Assembly: GCA_016871115.1 (NCBI GenBank)
Contig: VFZP01000014.1
Location: 1-34,068 of the forward strand
Direction of reading: 5' to 3'
Source of the DNA: Acidobacteriota bacterium
GTDB lineage: Bacteria; Acidobacteriota; Terriglobia; Bryobacterales; Bryobacteraceae
Length of the DNA: 34,068 bases
The notes under the pieces are model-generated. The model was given only the letters and a program-made list of their open reading frames with translations, did no database searches and was not told where the DNA came from. Of this stretch, positions 21,292 to 29,242 are shown one piece after another (position 1 is the stretch's first letter; every line of letters starts with the position of its first letter). A program made the position numbers and the translations under genes.

Positions 21292-23450
21292 CATTCCTGC
21301 GCTTGATCGTCCGCCTTGTGTTGCGGCTTTTTTCAAACTACGAAGTGCACGGGCCCATTCCGCAAAAAACGCCCGAAAAGCTGTTGATCATTGCCAATCA
21401 CCAGAGCCTCATTGACCCGCTCTACATCGGGTTGCTCTGCCCCTTCGACATCTGGTGGATCACGCACACCACCATCGCCGCGCGCTGGCACTTCAAGTTC
21501 ATCCTGCGCTTTGTGCCGCACCTGGTTGTGGACACCTCCAACCCGCACGCCATGCGCCAGGTGGTGGACCTGATCAACTCCGGCAAGCCCGTGTGCATCT
21601 TCCCGGAAGGACGGATCAGCGCCACCGGCAGCCTGATGAAGGTCTACGACGGCTTTGCGTTTCTGGCCTCGAAGACCGGCGCGGCGATTTTGCCGGTGAA
21701 CTTCGACGGGCTGACTCGTTCGTTCTGGTCTCGCCTGCCCGCGCCCCATCCCACGCGGCTCCGCGTGCCCGTGCGCGTGACGTTTTTCCCCCTGGTGCAT
21801 CTTGACGAACCCACCGGCCGCACGGGACGCGAACGCCGCCGCAAAGCGAGCCATCAGATGCGTCAGATGCTCGAGGCCAACTGGTTTGCCTCGCTGCAGA
21901 TGACGAATCTCTTCGACAAATTCCTCGAGTCGGTAGAGACGTTCGGGCGCAAATCGGAAGTCCTCTCCGATATCCGCTTCACGCCGGATTCGTTCGGCAA
22001 CGTGCTGCGTGGCGCGCTCGCGCTGGGCCGGCTGGTGTCGCGCTTCACGCGCGAGGGTGAAGTGGTGGGGCTGCTGATGCCCAACGCTTCGCCCACCGTC
22101 ATGCTGCTGTTCGGCTTGTTTGGCGCCAAGCGCGTGCCGGCGATGATCAACTACACGTCCGGCGTCGACGGCATGCAGAGCGTGATTCAAACGGCGCAGA
22201 TCAAAACCATCGTCAGCTCGCGCGCGTTCCTTGAAAAAGCCAAGCTGGTCGAGAAATTAGCGGCGCTCAAGGGCGTGGAGGTCAAGTTACTCGAAGACCT
22301 GCGCCCCACCTTCACGCTCACCGACAAGCTGTGGCTGATGTTGTGGGCGCTGCGTTTCCCGCGCCGCGTGGTGGCGGATGTGAAGCCGGACGATCCGGCG
22401 GTGATTCTGTTCACGTCGGGCTCGGAAGGCAAGCCCAAGGGGGTGGTGCTCAGCCACCGCGCGCTTCTCTCGAACATCGCGCAGGTGCAGTCCGTCTACG
22501 AGTTCTCCAATCGCGACAAATTCCTCGCCGCGCTCCCGTTGTTCCACTCGTTTGGCCTCACCGTGGGCGCCCTGGTGCCGCTCACCACGGGCGCGCGCGT
22601 GTTCCTGTACCCTTCGCCGCTGCACTACCGCATGATTCCCGAGATGGCGTATGACCAGGACTGCACGGTGCTCTTCGGCACTGGCACGTTCCTGGCGAAG
22701 TACGCGAAGATGGCGCACGAGTATGATTTCTACTCGATGCGTTACATTCTCTCGGGCGCGGAGAAGCTGCCTGAGAGCGTACGCACTGAGTACTTGCACA
22801 AGTTCGGCCACCGCATCATGGAAGGTTATGGCGTCACCGAATGCTCGCCCGCGATTTCGGTGAATACGCCGGTGTTTAACCGCGTGGGCACAGTGGGCCG
22901 CATTCTGCCGGGGATCGAATACGCATTGACGCCGGTGCCGGGAATCGAGCGGGGCGCGATGCTGCATGTGAGAGGCCCGAACCTGATGCTGGGCTACCTG
23001 CTGCACGATCAACCGGGCGTGCTGCGGCCGCCTGTTTCGCCGGCGAAGGGTCCGGGCTGGTATGAGACGGGCGATATCGTCGAGATCGATGAAGACGGGT
23101 TCCTGAAGATCGTCGGCCGCGTCAAGCGGTTTGCGAAAGTGGCGGGCGAAATGGTGTCGCTCGAAGTGGTGGAGCAGATGGCAAACGCCGCTTCGCCCGG
23201 CAAGGTACACGCGGCCACCACTGTGCAGAGCGTCAAGCGCGGTGAAGTGATCCTGCTGTACTCCGAGGACAAGACCTTGCGCCGCGAGAATCTGCTGGCC
23301 GCCGCGCGTGAAGCAGGCATGCCGGAAGTGGCCGTGCCGCGCCAGGTGCTGTATGTCGACAAGATGCCGCGGCTCGGCAGTGGCAAGGTGGACTACGTAG
23401 GGCTGAAAGAAATGGCCGCGCGCGAGGTGCCTGAGGCCGACCGCGCATGA
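21288..23450 (+). CDS. aas: Aas-like bifunctional acyltransferase / acyl-ACP synthetase
   Basis: A 720-residue fusion. Residues 1-200 are a PlsC-type glycerophospholipid acyltransferase with HxxxxD at 38-43 (NHQSLIDP) and FPEGR at 105-109. Residues about 210-720 are an AMP-forming adenylation domain: phosphate loop FTSGSEGKPKGVVLSH (375-390), EGYGVTE (512-518), YETGD near 613 and the C-terminal Lys region GSGKVDY. This is the architecture of E. coli Aas, which re-acylates lysophosphatidylethanolamine using acyl-ACP formed in the same protein. ATG 21288 was chosen because it starts the first membrane-associated helix (MTFLRLIVRLVLRL). Its stop overlaps the next gene's start (ATGA). In E. coli aas pairs with the flippase LplT; here the partner is a different MFS family. 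Confidence 0.9.
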   Translation: MTFLRLIVRLVLRLFSNYEVHGPIPQKTPEKLLIIANHQSLIDPLYIGLLCPFDIWWITHTTIAARWHFKFILRFVPHLVVDTSNPHAMRQVVDLINSGKPVCIFPEGRISATGSLMKVYDGFAFLASKTGAAILPVNFDGLTRSFWSRLPAPHPTRLRVPVRVTFFPLVHLDEPTGRTGRERRRKASHQMRQMLEANWFASLQMTNLFDKFLESVETFGRKSEVLSDIRFTPDSFGNVLRGALALGRLVSRFTREGEVVGLLMPNASPTVMLLFGLFGAKRVPAMINYTSGVDGMQSVIQTAQIKTIVSSRAFLEKAKLVEKLAALKGVEVKLLEDLRPTFTLTDKLWLMLWALRFPRRVVADVKPDDPAVILFTSGSEGKPKGVVLSHRALLSNIAQVQSVYEFSNRDKFLAALPLFHSFGLTVGALVPLTTGARVFLYPSPLHYRMIPEMAYDQDCTVLFGTGTFLAKYAKMAHEYDFYSMRYILSGAEKLPESVRTEYLHKFGHRIMEGYGVTECSPAISVNTPVFNRVGTVGRILPGIEYALTPVPGIERGAMLHVRGPNLMLGYLLHDQPGVLRPPVSPAKGPGWYETGDIVEIDEDGFLKIVGRVKRFAKVAGEMVSLEVVEQMANAASPGKVHAATTVQSVKRGEVILLYSEDKTLRRENLLAAAREAGMPEVAVPRQVLYVDKMPRLGSGKVDYVGLKEMAAREVPEADRA

Positions 23451-24778
23451 CCCCTTCCGTGCCCTACTCCGCGCGTGAACAGCGCGGCTGGTATGTCTAC
23501 GATTGGGCGAACTCGGCGTTCTACACGACCGTGGTGGCCGTGCTGCTGGGGCCGTATCTGACGGCGCTGGCGAAGTCCGCGGCGGCGGCCGATGGTACGG
23601 TGCCGTATTTCGGCTTCCGCGTGGCCACCGAATCCGTGTGGCCGTACTCGGTGTCGCTGTCCGTGTTTCTGCAGGTGTTCTTTCTGCCCGTGGTGGGCGC
23701 GTATGCGGACTTCGGGCGTCGCAAGCGTGAACTGCTGGGCGTGCTCACGTTGATCGGCGTGGCGGCCACGATTGCGTTGTATTGGGTGCGGGGTACGGCG
23801 TTCATGACGGGCGTGCTGCTGTATCTGTTTGCGAATCTGGCGTACGGCTGCTGCATCACGGTGTACAACTCGTTTCTGCCTGAGATTGCGCCACCTGAAC
23901 AACGCGACTCGGTGTCGGCCCGTGGATGGGCGATTGGCTACTTCGGCGGCGGACTGCTGTTGGCGTTGAATCTGTGGCTGTATTCGAATGCGGAGCGGCT
24001 GGGGCTCAGCGGCGGCGAGTCGGTGCGCCTGGGACTCGCTTCGGCGGGTTTGTGGTGGCTGCTGTTTGCGATCCCCGCGTTGTGGACGCTGCGCAATCGC
24101 GTGCCCGCGCGGCAGCCCGAAGCAGGGCGCGGGGCGCTCGCCTCGGCGCTGGGGCAGTTGTGGCATACACTGCGGGCGCTGCCGCGGTATCCGCAGACGC
24201 TGCTGTTTCTGGTGGCGTATCTCATTTACAACGACGCGATTCAGACGGTGTTCGTGATGGCATCGCAATTCGGCGCCGAAGAGCTGAAGATGTCGACGGC
24301 AGACCTGACCACGGCGATTCTGATGGTGCAGTTTGTGGCCTTCGGCGGCGCGATTGTCTTTAACTGGGTGGCCGCGCGGTTGGGCAGCCGGCGGACGATC
24401 ATGCTGACGCTTGCGATCTGGTGTTTCGCCGTGGTGCTGATTTACTTCTGGGTGTACTCGGTGAGCCAGTTCTACATCGCCGCCACGATCGTGGCCACGG
24501 TGATGGGCGGGAGCCAGGCGCTGAGCCGGTCGTTGTTTTCGTTCATAATTCCGAAGGGGCAAGAGGCTGAGTATTACAGCGTGTATGAGATCAGCGACAA
24601 GGGCACCAGTTGGCTGGGACCGTTGTTCTTCGGCGCGGCCTTGTCCCTGACGCACAACTTCCGCATCGCGATTGTGTCGCTGATTTTGTTTTTCTTCGTG
24701 GGACTGGTGCTGCTATCGCGCGTGGACGTGGCACGGGCGTCGCGCGAGGCGGGCACTGAGCCGCCCGCCGTGCTTTAG
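23447..24778 (+). CDS. Atg22/UMF1-family MFS transporter
   Basis: A 443-residue, 12-helix major facilitator. The diagnostic N-terminal motif of the UMF1/Atg22-like family, RGWYVYDWANSAFYTTVV, is present. So are PVVGAYADFGRRKRELLG between helices 2 and 3, NSFLPEIAPPEQRDSVSARG and GGSQALSRSLFSFIIPKGQE. It overlaps the aas-like gene by 4 bp (ATGA), implying tight translational coupling. By analogy with LplT-Aas, it may move lysophospholipid or another lipid product across the inner membrane, but Atg22 relatives are known as amino-acid effluxers in yeast, so the substrate is inference. It is convergent with the methyltransferase gene. Confidence 0.88.
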   Translation: MTPSVPYSAREQRGWYVYDWANSAFYTTVVAVLLGPYLTALAKSAAAADGTVPYFGFRVATESVWPYSVSLSVFLQVFFLPVVGAYADFGRRKRELLGVLTLIGVAATIALYWVRGTAFMTGVLLYLFANLAYGCCITVYNSFLPEIAPPEQRDSVSARGWAIGYFGGGLLLALNLWLYSNAERLGLSGGESVRLGLASAGLWWLLFAIPALWTLRNRVPARQPEAGRGALASALGQLWHTLRALPRYPQTLLFLVAYLIYNDAIQTVFVMASQFGAEELKMSTADLTTAILMVQFVAFGGAIVFNWVAARLGSRRTIMLTLAIWCFAVVLIYFWVYSVSQFYIAATIVATVMGGSQALSRSLFSFIIPKGQEAEYYSVYEISDKGTSWLGPLFFGAALSLTHNFRIAIVSLILFFFVGLVLLSRVDVARASREAGTEPPAVL

Positions 24779-24809
24779 CCGGCTATCGCGCGCGGGTGGC
24801 GACGACGAT

Positions 24810-25547
24810 CTAGGACGTGGCGAGGAAGCGCTCGATCCACGCAAGCGGCAGGATGCCCGCCACCACTTCATACGCCACGGCAAACGGGACACGGTTGGAG
24901 AACAGGAGCGGGGCTTCCATTGCCTGGATGAAGAATCCGTGCCGTTCGATGATCTGAAGTTGTTCGCGCCCGGTCTTGAGGTTGTGATGGTGCACGGCGT
25001 GGATGCTGGTATCCCACCGCTGGAGGAACTCGCTGGTGCGCCAGCCCTCGCCCTTGAGCAAGCGCAGGAAGGGGTGGATGTACTTGTCGAAGAACGCCGC
25101 GTCGGACTGCACCACCAACCGGCCGCCGGGGCGCGACACGCGGAAGGCCTCGATGTAGAAGTCGCTGAGTTCCCAATTGTAAAGGTGTTCGACGACGAAG
25201 GTGGAAAACACCATGTCGACGGACTGGTCGGCCAGAGGGAGCGTCTGGATGGGCGCGACGAGCGGAGTGAGATTCGCGTGGCCGCGCAGCGCGGCTTTGC
25301 GCAGGCCATGCTCGTCCATATCCACCACGAGTAGGTCATGTTCCGGGTTCAGCCGCGCCCAGCGCGCACTCGCATTCGCCGCACCGCAGCCGCACTCCAC
25401 CACCAGACCCTTGAAATCGGTGAGGAACCGCATGTAGTATTCGTTCTCGGAAAGATCAAGGGCGACATACTGCGGCAGCCTAGTGTCGTTTGAGCCTAAA
25501 TCCGGCAGTTGGGTTGGCCGGTCGGGCATGAAGTGATGGATGCTCAA
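24810..25547 (-). CDS. Class I SAM methyltransferase domain (interrupted gene, C-terminal part)
   Basis: The native frame reads NDTRLPQYVALDLSENEYYM, then VVECGCGAAN (motif I, SAM-binding), DLLVVDMDEHGL, PLADQSVDMVFSTFVVEHLY and VSRPGGRLVV (the usual post-motif-III region). The first 18 residues of the open frame (from TTG 25547) are not native: they are translated from the end of the inserted mobile element (RPTQLPDLG is its inverted repeat). The native N-terminus continues at 26149-26368. The frame ends ATS at TAG 24810-24812, but IVVATRAR follows in frame before the next stop, a sequence much like a natural methyltransferase C-terminus, so this TAG may also be a nonsense change. Target unknown; ubiquinone/menaquinone or small-molecule methylases are similar. 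Confidence 0.8.
   Translation of the reverse strand: MSIHHFMPDRPTQLPDLGSNDTRLPQYVALDLSENEYYMRFLTDFKGLVVECGCGAANASARWARLNPEHDLLVVDMDEHGLRKAALRGHANLTPLVAPIQTLPLADQSVDMVFSTFVVEHLYNWELSDFYIEAFRVSRPGGRLVVQSDAAFFDKYIHPFLRLLKGEGWRTSEFLQRWDTSIHAVHHHNLKTGREQLQIIERHGFFIQAMEAPLLFSNRVPFAVAYEVVAGILPLAWIERFLATS
25490..25512 (+). repeat. Left target-site duplication and left terminal inverted repeat of the inserted element
   Basis: TTGAG (25490-25494) is the target duplication; the second copy is at 26149-26153. CCTAAATCCGGCAGTTGG (25495-25512) is the 18-bp terminal repeat, exactly complementary to 26131-26148. Confidence 0.85.
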
Positions 25548-25551
25548 CGGG

Positions 25552-25677
25552 ATGGGCGAGGAAAAGAGCGTACCGGTCGTTCACCCAAAAGGTGAAGAAG
25601 AAAACCCGGAGTTGCGATATCCGTCACCACGCCGGATCGAGACCTTTGGCGGCAGCGTGGAAGTCCGCTGGGCCTAG
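25552..25677 (+). pseudogene. Transposase N-terminal fragment (IS1380-like, tentative)
   Basis: ATG 25552 opens MGEEKSVPVVHPKGEEENPE, then LRYPSPRRIETFGGSVEVRW, then TAG at 25675. The RIETFGGSVEVRW segment recalls the N-termini of IS1380-type transposases found in Acidobacteriota, which continue with a D-P-x-x-P-V-T-P segment. The reading frame starts 40 bp inside the left inverted repeat, the expected position for the native transposase of this element. Recognition is by recall. Confidence 0.4.
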
Positions 25678-25744
25678 CAGCCCGTGGTAAAAGTCCAGCA
25701 CAGGTGACCCCGGAGATGTTTCCGACGTCTATGCGCATATGGCG

Positions 25745-26074
25745 ATGGGAAGACGCTGGAAGCAGGCCAAGCAGGAGTGGCTGTGGGTGGCCACGGCCGA
25801 ACTGCCGCGTAGTGCCAGCCATCCGTGCTACAGCAAGCTGAACGAAATTCTGGATGAGGCCGGCTTCGACGAGTTCGTCGAGACCCGGTGCGCCGGCTTC
25901 TACGCCGACCGGATGGGACGCCCCAGCTTGGCGCCGGGGATCTACTTCCGAGCGCTGCTGGTGGGCTACTTGGAAGGCATCGATTCCGAGCGCGGTATCG
26001 CGTGGCGAGCCAGCGACAGCCTCTCCATCCGGCACTTTCTCCGTGTGGGCCTGGACGAGCAGGTGCCCGATCAT
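25745..26074 (+). pseudogene. IS1182-family transposase N-terminal fragment
   Basis: About 110 residues (MGRRWKQAKQEWLWVATAEL, ASHPCYSKLNEILDEAGFDE, DRMGRPSLAPGIYFRALLVG, YLEGIDSERGIAWRASDSLS, IRHFL, ending VPDHS) match the N-terminal DUF772 region of IS1182 transposases, which precedes the DDE core. The fragment stops exactly where the 26076 inverted repeat begins; the apparent continuation (KSGSWNRPDEF) is translated repeat. None of the catalytic core remains. Confidence 0.75.
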
Positions 26075-26075
26075 T

Positions 26076-26147
26076 CTAAATCCGGCAGTTGGAATCGGCC
26101 AGACGAGTTCGAGAGGCGGTCTGGTCGATTCCAACTGCCGGATTTAG
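26076..26147 (+). repeat. 72-bp near-perfect palindrome made of two head-to-head element ends
   Basis: Arms 26076-26104 and 26119-26147 (29 bp, one mismatch) flank a 14-bp centre. The outer 22 bp of each arm (CTAAATCCGGCAGTTGGAATCG and its complement, split here at 20 bases by position) include the terminal repeat. The right arm is also the right end of the whole element. Confidence 0.85.
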
Positions 26148-26148
26148 G

Positions 26149-26368
26149 TTGAGTAGTCCTGGAAGCGGTTGCGGCCCGCCTCCGTCCGGGGTTGCAGCAC
26201 GCCGTGGCTGGAATCCAGGCGGTATTCGCAAGCCGTGCAAGCCATACCCCGAAGGCGCACGCGGCAGTGTGGACAGGCAAGCGCGGCCTGGAGGGCCGGA
26301 CGGATACCGTTGACGTGGCTCAGAACGGTTTCCAACTTCATCAGATTGTTGGCGGTTGGTTGCGTCAT
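26149..26368 (-). pseudogene. Zinc-ribbon N-terminus of the interrupted methyltransferase
   Basis: From ATG 26368 the frame encodes 73 native residues: MTQPTANNLMKLETVLSHVN, then a four-cysteine zinc ribbon (CPHCRVRLRGMACTACEYRL, the two CxxC pairs), SSHGVLQPRTEA and FQDYS. It then runs into the mobile element, and TAA (26144-26146) inside the inverted repeat ends it. Joined in frame to NDTRLPQYVALDL after precise excision, the gene would encode a 299-residue protein with an N-terminal zinc ribbon and a methyltransferase domain, an arrangement known from several class I methylases. About 126 bp separate its start from the upstream glycosyl-hydrolase-like gene. Confidence 0.8.
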
Positions 26369-26494
26369 AGTGCAATGCGCGGCAGAGTCCCTCTAGGCCT
26401 GGTGGCCGCGCCGGAGCCCGTGACAGCCGCTCCCTAGAGTCTGAATGCGGGAACCGGCGCCAAAATCTCAGCCGATTTTGTAAAACACGACTGA

Positions 26495-27271
26495 CTAGGC
26501 GCCCTGGTAGCGGAGGGCGAGTTCCACTTTTTCCACTTGCAGGTCGTCACCGATCCGGAACGCGGGCCGGTCGAGCACACGAACCTGGATCTGGTTCTCC
26601 CCGCGCCTGAGCAACGCCGGCGGCAACGCGTAGGTGAGTCGCAGCAGCTTCTGATTGGGTATCGCGGGGTATTCGCCCTTCCCACCGGAATTGGGCTGGG
26701 GATGGGGTGAGAAGATCTGCGGATCCTGCCAATCTGGATTCATCTCGGGGGACGCGAGCAGGCGGCCGTTGCAGGAAACCTCCAGCCGGTCTGCCGCGCG
26801 GGCGCGAAAGAGCACGACCGAGAGCCGGGCATCGGAGGGGATGTCCGTTTCATAGACACGTAGCGGCAAAACCGTGGGCCGGCCATCGTTGGCCAGACGC
26901 GCCGGCAAGGGCAGATGGTCATTGCGGTTGTGATAGCCCTCGGCCCACGGATATCCGCCCCGTCGCTCCACGATGAACAGCTTGTCTTTGCGCCGCATGG
27001 TGTCGAGTCGGCCGATCTCGCGATACGCCATCTGCTGCGAGGCGGGGACCGCGCGACCGCCCACGGGGCGCGCCTCGTCCGCGGGAGCCGCGCCCCAGTT
27101 GAAGGTGGTAACCGAATCGGCGCCCTGATTGAGCCAGTTCGTGGCCACGCCGCGGAAGAACTCGATGGGCGGATAGCGGTAGCCATCGGTGGCATGATGG
27201 TCGTCCAGGCAGGGCGACAACTTGATGCGCGGCCCCACCACGCGGCGGATTTCTTCCACGTTCACGGTCAT
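26495..27271 (-). CDS. Glycosyl-hydrolase-like protein, C-terminal part
   Basis: A 258-residue frame (ATG 27271) that continues the TIM-barrel of the preceding frame. It has VNVEEIRRVVGPRIKLSPCL, DDHHATDGYRYPPIEFFRGV, NWLNQGADSVTTFNWG and MAYREIGRLDTMRRKDKLF. A C-terminal beta-sandwich follows (LSVVLFRARAADRLEVSCNG ... GENQIQVRVLDRPAF). By itself it lacks a signal peptide and the first half of the barrel. Its ATG overlaps the TGA of the N-terminal part (ATGA, 27268-27271). Either two subunits are translationally coupled or, more likely, one base has been lost just upstream in a single gene. Confidence 0.7.
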   Translation of the reverse strand: MTVNVEEIRRVVGPRIKLSPCLDDHHATDGYRYPPIEFFRGVATNWLNQGADSVTTFNWGAAPADEARPVGGRAVPASQQMAYREIGRLDTMRRKDKLFIVERRGGYPWAEGYHNRNDHLPLPARLANDGRPTVLPLRVYETDIPSDARLSVVLFRARAADRLEVSCNGRLLASPEMNPDWQDPQIFSPHPQPNSGGKGEYPAIPNQKLLRLTYALPPALLRRGENQIQVRVLDRPAFRIGDDLQVEKVELALRYQGA

Positions 27272-28083
27272 CGTGCGCGACCCAAGGTCAGCAGGTCAAC
27301 CAGGTTTTCCTTGCCCCACACCGCCAGATCGAAACCATCTTCGCGGCAGCCGCGAAGCGTTTCCGGCACCTTGGCGGCCAGCAGGAAAGAGCGCCCGCGC
27401 CGCCGGCCGGCGTCTACGAGCATGCGGCGCATCATGCGCAGAAACTCGGAGGCATGATCGCGCAACTCCCATTGGCGGCCCGGAGGCAGGCACGGAATGT
27501 GGCGGGCAAAGTCGATCTGAATGCCGTCGATATCGAGGGTTTCAGCGATCTCGCGCAACACCTGGACCTTGTGTTCGCGCAACCCCGGCGAGGCGATGTT
27601 CCAGAGTCCTTGCCACCACCAGGAACGAATCAGCCAGTCCGGGTGTTGCGCTTTCAGCGGACTCAGCTTCTCCATTTCGAGGCCGCCTTCCGGGCGGATA
27701 TCGACTTCGCTGAACCGGTGATGCCAGAACACTTCGATCTTGCGCCGCCGGCAGCGTTCGAGGATGGCCGGAATCCACTCAAAGCCTTCCCGCCGCCATT
27801 CGGCCAGATACCGGTCCGGACTCGGAGGCAGGAGGCGGCTCGGATACGCGGCGTAGGTGTCCCCGAGCGACACGTCCCAGAAGATCGAATCAATCTGCGA
27901 GCCCGGTTCTTCGGCGAAGGCAAACAGATAGGCGAGCCATTGCGCGGGCGGGAGGCGGACGTCGCGATGGTCGGCCGCATCGAACTGCACACAGATACGG
28001 CGCGGCCGAGGCGGCGGCGGCTCGGCGCCGCTCGACAGCGTGGGGGCGGCGAGTAGGGTTTGGAGGAAATGGCTGCGCCGCAT
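27268..28083 (-). CDS. Glycosyl-hydrolase-like TIM-barrel protein, N-terminal part
   Basis: A 271-residue frame with a leader (MRRSHFLQTLLAAPTLSSG) followed by barrel strands: RRICVQFDAADH, IDSIFWDVSLGDTYAAYPSR, KIEVFWHHRFSEVD, WLIRSWWWQGLWNIASPG, LDIDGIQIDFARHIPCLPPG and LAVWGKENLVDLLTLG. The GIQIDFARH strand carries the acidic residue expected at a barrel strand end. The overall layout is that of the acidobacterial family-10-like/DUF4015-like exported hydrolases. It ends LTLGRAR at the ATGA; reading one base differently gives LTLGSRTMTVNVEE, continuous with the next frame. It lies 16 bp downstream of the serine hydrolase gene. Confidence 0.7.
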   Translation of the reverse strand: MRRSHFLQTLLAAPTLSSGAEPPPPRPRRICVQFDAADHRDVRLPPAQWLAYLFAFAEEPGSQIDSIFWDVSLGDTYAAYPSRLLPPSPDRYLAEWRREGFEWIPAILERCRRRKIEVFWHHRFSEVDIRPEGGLEMEKLSPLKAQHPDWLIRSWWWQGLWNIASPGLREHKVQVLREIAETLDIDGIQIDFARHIPCLPPGRQWELRDHASEFLRMMRRMLVDAGRRRGRSFLLAAKVPETLRGCREDGFDLAVWGKENLVDLLTLGRAR

Positions 28084-28099
28084 GCTAAAGAGGCGGCTC

Positions 28100-29242
28100 C
28101 TAGTTTAAACGGAGCTTGCGCAGAAACTCTTCGAAGTGCTCCTGCTCGAACCAGCGGAGGACGATGACGAGATCATGCTCGGGGTCGCAATACACCATGT
28201 TGGTGCCGTTGCCGATGTGGGCGTAGGCGGTGGCGGGCGCGCTGGGCCATAGCTTGCGGTCCGTGTTCAGATACCAGTTCATGAAGCCGTAAGTGGGCTG
28301 TACGGGCGTGGGCGTGCGGGCCAGCTTCACCCAGTTCTCTGAGAGCAATTGCCGCCCGCCCCATTTTCCCTGGCGAAGCGTGAGCAGCCCGAAGCGGGTA
28401 TGGTCGCGCGCGCTGATCCAGAGCCCGCCGCCGAAGTGCGCGCCGCCGGCAACCGACTGCATCATCACGCCGTCGATGTTCACCCACGAGTTTTCGTAAC
28501 CGTACCAGCGCCAAGTCTGCGAGGCGCCGATGGGGTCCATGAGGCGCTCTTTCAACACCTGCGGCAGCGGCTTGCGCCAGACCTGGAGCGCGGAGTAGGC
28601 GAGCAGATTCACGCGCGTGTCATTGTACTTGTAGGTGGCGCCCGGCTCGGCGTGCTGGCGATTGCGGTAGGCCTCCAGCGCATCGGCGCCGGCGGGTGGA
28701 CGGTCTGCCCAGTCCGGCTTGCCCCACAGTGTGCCTTCCCAATCGCTGGTTTGGCGCAGCAGGTGATCCCACGTGATCTTGCGGTTCATGGGCGTCGAGT
28801 CAAACTCGCCGGTGGTGACGTAGCGGCGGACGGGGTCATGGATGGATTGGATCAGGCCAGCGTCAACGGCGAGACCCACGGTGGCGGAGAGATAACTCTT
28901 GGTGGCGCTGAACGTCATGTCCACGCGATGCGGCTCGCCCCACTCGGCCACGAGGTAGCCGCCTTTCAGGATGACGCCGGTGAGGTCGCCGCGGGTTTTG
29001 TAGGGGCCGAGCGGCTCGCCGTAGGGCTCGCGGCCAAACGAGAGTTCGTGGGCCAGGCGTAGGTCGCGCGGGCGTTTGGTTTCCTTGGTTTGGATGAAGG
29101 CGATGGCGTCGCGGACAGCGTCGGGGTTGAGGCCGGCGGCGTCGGGCGAGCGGCGTTCCCAATGGTCATGCGGACCAGGGACGTAGGGCGTCTGGGCGAG
29201 GAGCGGGGCAAGCGGGAGGAGGAACAGGAAACGGCGGCGCAC
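28100..29242 (-). CDS. Exported serine hydrolase (class C beta-lactamase/esterase fold)
   Basis: A 380-residue protein with a signal peptide (MRRRFLFLLPLAPLLAQ). The nucleophile motif SxxK is SATK at 112-115 (MTFSATKSYL), the tyrosine motif is in YKYNDTRVN (204-212), and the third motif is represented by HIGNG near the C-terminus. These are the landmarks of the beta-lactamase-related (PF00144) hydrolases, which include peptidases and esterases as well as lactamases. Only the fold can be assigned. It precedes the glycosyl-hydrolase-like genes with a 16-bp gap, suggesting an operon, and starts 50 bp after mnmE. Confidence 0.88.
   Translation of the reverse strand: MRRRFLFLLPLAPLLAQTPYVPGPHDHWERRSPDAAGLNPDAVRDAIAFIQTKETKRPRDLRLAHELSFGREPYGEPLGPYKTRGDLTGVILKGGYLVAEWGEPHRVDMTFSATKSYLSATVGLAVDAGLIQSIHDPVRRYVTTGEFDSTPMNRKITWDHLLRQTSDWEGTLWGKPDWADRPPAGADALEAYRNRQHAEPGATYKYNDTRVNLLAYSALQVWRKPLPQVLKERLMDPIGASQTWRWYGYENSWVNIDGVMMQSVAGGAHFGGGLWISARDHTRFGLLTLRQGKWGGRQLLSENWVKLARTPTPVQPTYGFMNWYLNTDRKLWPSAPATAYAHIGNGTNMVYCDPEHDLVIVLRWFEQEHFEEFLRKLRLN

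Follow-up and report, generated by a model that had tools for sequence, protein, structure and literature searches.

We found that two minus-strand frames in the window (the whole 34,068-nt stretch of DNA analysed here) are very probably the parts of a single gene for a putative zinc-ribbon methyltransferase, split by a 654-bp non-autonomous mosaic element that has IS1380-like ends and was most likely moved in trans. The genome is a 6.3-Mb draft in 639 contigs, and the locus lies on the window contig (C14). In window coordinates, it reads:

24810-25489, minus strand: 3' part of the split gene, coding for residues 73-299 when the target-site duplication is counted in, with a complete class I SAM-methyltransferase domain
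25490-25494, no strand: left copy of the TTGAG target-site duplication, which fits NTNAN
25495-25677, plus strand: IS1380-like left end, 183 bp including the terminal inverted repeat 25495-25512; copies 95-98% identical on about 23 contigs
25674-25677, no strand: CTAG, where the IS1380-like left end meets the IS1182 segment
25678-26075, plus strand: 5' part of an IS1182-family element, about 400 bp, with the leader and the N-terminal part of the transposase (frame from 25739)
26076-26148, no strand: fold-back (palindromic) right end, made of an inverted stretch (26076-26128) and the outward right terminus (26129-26148, terminal inverted repeat 26131-26148)
26149-26153, no strand: right copy of the TTGAG target-site duplication
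26154-26368, minus strand: 5' part of the split gene, an open frame from the start codon to about residue 72, with the zinc knuckle CPHC...CTAC

The insertion can be read to the base. TTGAG-CCTAAATCCGGCAGTTGG stands at 25490-25512 and its mirror, CCAACTGCCGGATTTAGG-TTGAG, at 26131-26153; the element between the two TTGAG copies is 654 bp long (25495-26148) and its 18-bp terminal inverted repeats are perfect, CCTAAATCCGGCAGTTGG at 25495-25512 being matched by its exact complement at 26131-26148. When the flanks are joined minus one TTGAG, they form a 900-nt minus-strand frame of 299 codons and a stop, with no internal stop, which reads MTQPTANN...CPHCRVRLRGMACTACEY...RFQDYSNDTRLPQYVALDL...RFLATS. 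The gene is thus cut between codons 72 and 73. An earlier sequence-only reading had given the same element length, repeats and duplication and had claimed that excision with one TTGAG restores a single frame of 299 residues; all of this proved exact when we re-read the window, as did its remark that the frame at 25547 opens with 18 element-derived codons (LSIHHFMPDRPTQLPDLG; the last codon uses one base of the duplication). As to the further copies that it proposed to look for, the left end is present on about 23 contigs of the genome and the right end on about 18. Since the ends recur across contigs and the 5-bp flank matches NTNAN, a pattern with a background of 2.9% of the 5-mers in the window, the insertion reading is not due to chance. 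What that reading missed is the nature of the element, which is a transposase-less mosaic and not a simple transposon.

The ends belong to a high-copy element, IS1380-like, with roughly 20 copies in the genome. It breaks many contigs of the draft, most of those with its left end stopping inside it, as contigs tend to do at abundant repeats in short-read assemblies, and no complete copy is assembled in the draft genome. After GGGCCTAG, the other copies go on with GACGGTGGGATGAGCTTGCACGG, which opens a protein frame (MSLHGPLAYFVEF), so that elsewhere the same left ends lead into protein-coding sequence. The right ends encode, inside the repeat, a protein C-terminus (...TRLADSICRI and a stop) that aligns over 49 aa, at 45% identity, with a 546-aa frame in a full-length relative of the element from the same bacterial family. 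We name the parent "IS1380-like" because this 546-aa relative matches the NCBIfam IS1380 model at 5.8e-42 and 143.8 bits, below the cut-off of 180, and passes Pfam DDE_Tnp_1_4 (8e-19). The 5-mer directly outside the ends has T in position 2 and A in position 4 (NTNAN) at 18 of 18 left ends and 18 of 18 outer right ends, the window's two included, hence at all 34 other outer ends read; with the window's inner right end, the right ends come to 19/19. This tally is one of single outer ends (L001-L026 for the left; L041-L054 and L093-L108 for the right), the contigs of the other copies breaking before their duplications can be paired. The TTGAG duplicated in the window is of the NTNAN type, which makes the 5-bp duplication consistent with the other copies.

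In the element itself, an IS1182 fragment lies between IS1380-like ends, the right one being a fold-back, and a complete transposase gene is lacking. Several copies of the IS1380-like left end diverge exactly past element position 183. The only transposase match inside the element is the IS1182/DUF772 fragment, a transposase N-terminus with DUF772 that places it in the IS1182 family (NCBIfam IS1182, 5.1e-14; Pfam DUF772, 5.1e-14) and that, as a fragment, stays under the whole-protein NCBIfam cut-off. It breaks off after VPDHS (GTGCCCGATCAT), and an uncut IS1182 copy on contig C441 runs on as GATCATTCGACCCTTTCGCGC (DHSTLSRNRR); the annotation of the plus-strand frame 25739-26152 is corrected to that of a transposase fragment. 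Past the break come the IS1380-like right end facing inward (TCTAAATCCGGCAGTTGGAATCGGCCAGACGAGTTCGAGAGGCGGTCTGGTCGA) and then the right end facing outward (TTCCAACTGCCGGATTTAGG), the fold-back arms of 34 nt (26071-26104/26119-26152) being 91% complementary. The IS1380-like right ends found elsewhere in the genome are normal and have no fold-back, which is seen in the window copy only. The inner, inverted right end, in which the first base is changed from C to T, adjoins ATCAT, also of the NTNAN type, and could stem from the IS1380-like element having inserted a second time, in reverse. The IS1380-like right end has a natural hairpin (GTCTGGTCGA/GTCTGGCCGA), and the switch from inward to outward falls within it, which is what a fold-back deletion would leave. 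Taken as a separate 73-bp mobile repeat, the stretch 26076-26148 was ruled out, its other matches being normal IS1380-like right ends.

CTAG stands directly before the IS1182 left end in 10 of the 13 places read, the window included (L025-L039, L044), a count that concerns left ends alone, the IS1182 right end being absent from the assembly. Other copies of the IS1182 repeat have unrelated left flanks. The same junction of left end and IS1182 segment at CTAG is found on contig C457 (G000, L002; 4260-4655), 97% identical over 396 bp, and that contig ends there. The two copies differ in both parts, at element positions 20, 48, 66, 123, 188 and 242, and at position 188 they fall into different allele classes of the IS1182 repeat. 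Because the chimeras on C14 and C457 differ in allele set in both parts, the sequences suggest that this CTAG was entered twice, in separate events, the alternative being a single event followed by divergence or conversion. It is conceivable, though doubtful, that the CTAG in the IS1380-like leader is a recurrent IS1182 landing site and that mosaics arise repeatedly and spread in trans. On contig C481, an IS1182 left end is immediately preceded by a second, partial copy of that left end in tandem (GGCAGCCCGTGGTAAAGAAGTCCGG; L005 / L034 left flank).

The mosaic could have been built as follows. An IS1182-family element would have entered the IS1380-like leader at CTAG, and a reversed IS1380-like right end would have come to sit in the IS1182 transposase gene; a fold-back rearrangement would then have joined this reversed end to the outward right terminus and deleted the remainder. 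The transposase of an intact IS1380-like copy would have moved the resulting 654-bp element in trans, by DDE-type transposition into the methyltransferase gene with a 5-bp staggered cut at TTGAG. Movement in trans by an IS1380-like transposase is most likely, being the simplest account of an element that keeps both IS1380-like ends and has no transposase of its own. A different history, which we consider improbable, is that the true insert is a longer nested IS, an IS1380-like element carrying an IS1182 element, and that assembly or amplification produced the 654-bp form as a chimera at the palindromic right end. The palindromic end is indeed found in the window copy only, nearly all other copies in the draft break at contig ends, and the C457 copy with the same left-end/IS1182 junction is itself cut off at a contig end; but the two sides of the switch share only about 10 nt with a mismatch (GTCTGGTCGA/GTCTGGCCGA), which would be too short for an ordinary k-mer misjoin. 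The duplication is identical under either form, so the gene is split even if the 654-bp form is such a chimera.

As far as the sequences allow a test, the protein comparisons support the two frames being one split gene. The 245-aa 3' frame matches residues 73-299 of the restored protein at 100% and wholly contains a class I SAM-methyltransferase domain, Pfam Methyltransf_11 (2.1e-15, profile 2-95/95; 57.1 bits against a cut-off of 21.2); no NCBIfam family reaches its cut-off in a search with the methyltransferase, and the PDB relatives span the methyltransferase domain only (best 3mgg, 8.8e-9). At the N-terminus, for which a four-Cys ribbon was claimed, a CxxC...CxxC knuckle stands ahead of Methyltransf_11; the zinc-ribbon profile Pfam DZR reaches 17.6 bits, below its cut-off of 27.3. 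The same layout exists in two relatives from the same family, whose frames run uninterrupted across the position of the junction: G192 (L122/L152; 31% over 198 aa, E 1.6e-18) and G028 (L062/L153; 25% over 284 aa, E 1.6e-13). Aligning both with the restored protein shows Cys32, 35, 44 and 47 to be conserved in all three. The sequence-only reading would have fallen had the two parts never been fused, or had homologs begun at the position of 25547; none was seen to begin there. The other homologs are generic methyltransferases without the ribbon, aligning from about residue 61-71, so even they extend upstream of the insertion point. In the fused relative at L152 (8946-9671, minus strand), the SAM motif I region reads LDYTEGSFGAS, against VECGCGAANAS in the window protein, and this relative is possibly an inactive methyltransferase-like protein. 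It is very hard to credit that a real, functional methyltransferase gene starts at 25547, or at the internal ATG 25529, next to an unrelated upstream piece: its methyltransferase domain is complete and ribbon-less generic methyltransferases align only from about residue 61-71, but its first 18 codons are transposon end sequence, no evident Shine-Dalgarno lies ahead of 25529, the fused relatives have the ribbon on the same frame, and the alignment of the generic homologs already begins upstream of the junction.

The split separates the putative zinc ribbon (72 codons) from the catalytic part of the gene, and the catalytic domain itself is uncut. Most likely, the methyltransferase enzyme is lost. 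The candidate starts of the 3' frame (TTG 25547 or ATG 25529) lie inside the element and have no evident ribosome-binding site; a ribbon-less product of the 3' part is possible. The insertion would be recent on the scale of gene decay, since both gene halves are otherwise undamaged.

Among 237 genomes of the family, the window's included, the 299-aa protein has no close match besides its own, a search of genome contigs gave no close ortholog, and no empty-site allele was found in any genome searched. The closest named relatives of the window mnmE are from Bryobacterales and other Terriglobia metagenome genomes (Acidobacteriota). At 80 Acidobacteriota mnmE loci, neither the methyltransferase nor a syntenic empty site was found within the flanks covered; in most of them, jag and yidC adjoin mnmE. 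The two fused relatives share no synteny with the window. From an Atg22-like MFS gene to mnmE (23447-29242), the window holds methyltransferase, unknown, GHL10-like and beta-lactamase-like genes; with no match beside mnmE in the 80 loci, these form an accessory stretch. The methyltransferase gene itself looks accessory.

The event is ordinary in kind, an IS-derived insertion splitting a gene in an IS-rich Acidobacteriota lineage, and it answers no long-standing question. What is added here is how the mosaic is composed and the NTNAN pattern at its insertion sites. The annotation changes as well, two separate-looking frames becoming one split methyltransferase gene. The locus shows cleanly how a non-autonomous element that disrupts a gene may arise from two IS families by nesting and fold-back deletion. 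Elements of the IS1380 family (e.g. ISEcp1) have inverted repeats that start with CCT and make a 5-bp target duplication. The window element resembles them in its CCT-starting repeats, its 5-bp duplication and the match of a relative in the same bacterial family to the IS1380 model; unlike them, it has no transposase and its ends enclose foreign DNA. Like other non-autonomous IS derivatives (MITEs, transposase-less IS), it keeps both ends, has lost the coding part and would move in trans, but its inside is a fragment of an IS of another family plus a fold-back end, and not just a deletion of the parent. The interrupted gene, in turn, resembles zinc-ribbon (CxxC..CxxC) class I SAM-methyltransferases, with an N-terminal four-Cys knuckle followed by Methyltransf_11, as in its fused relatives in the family.
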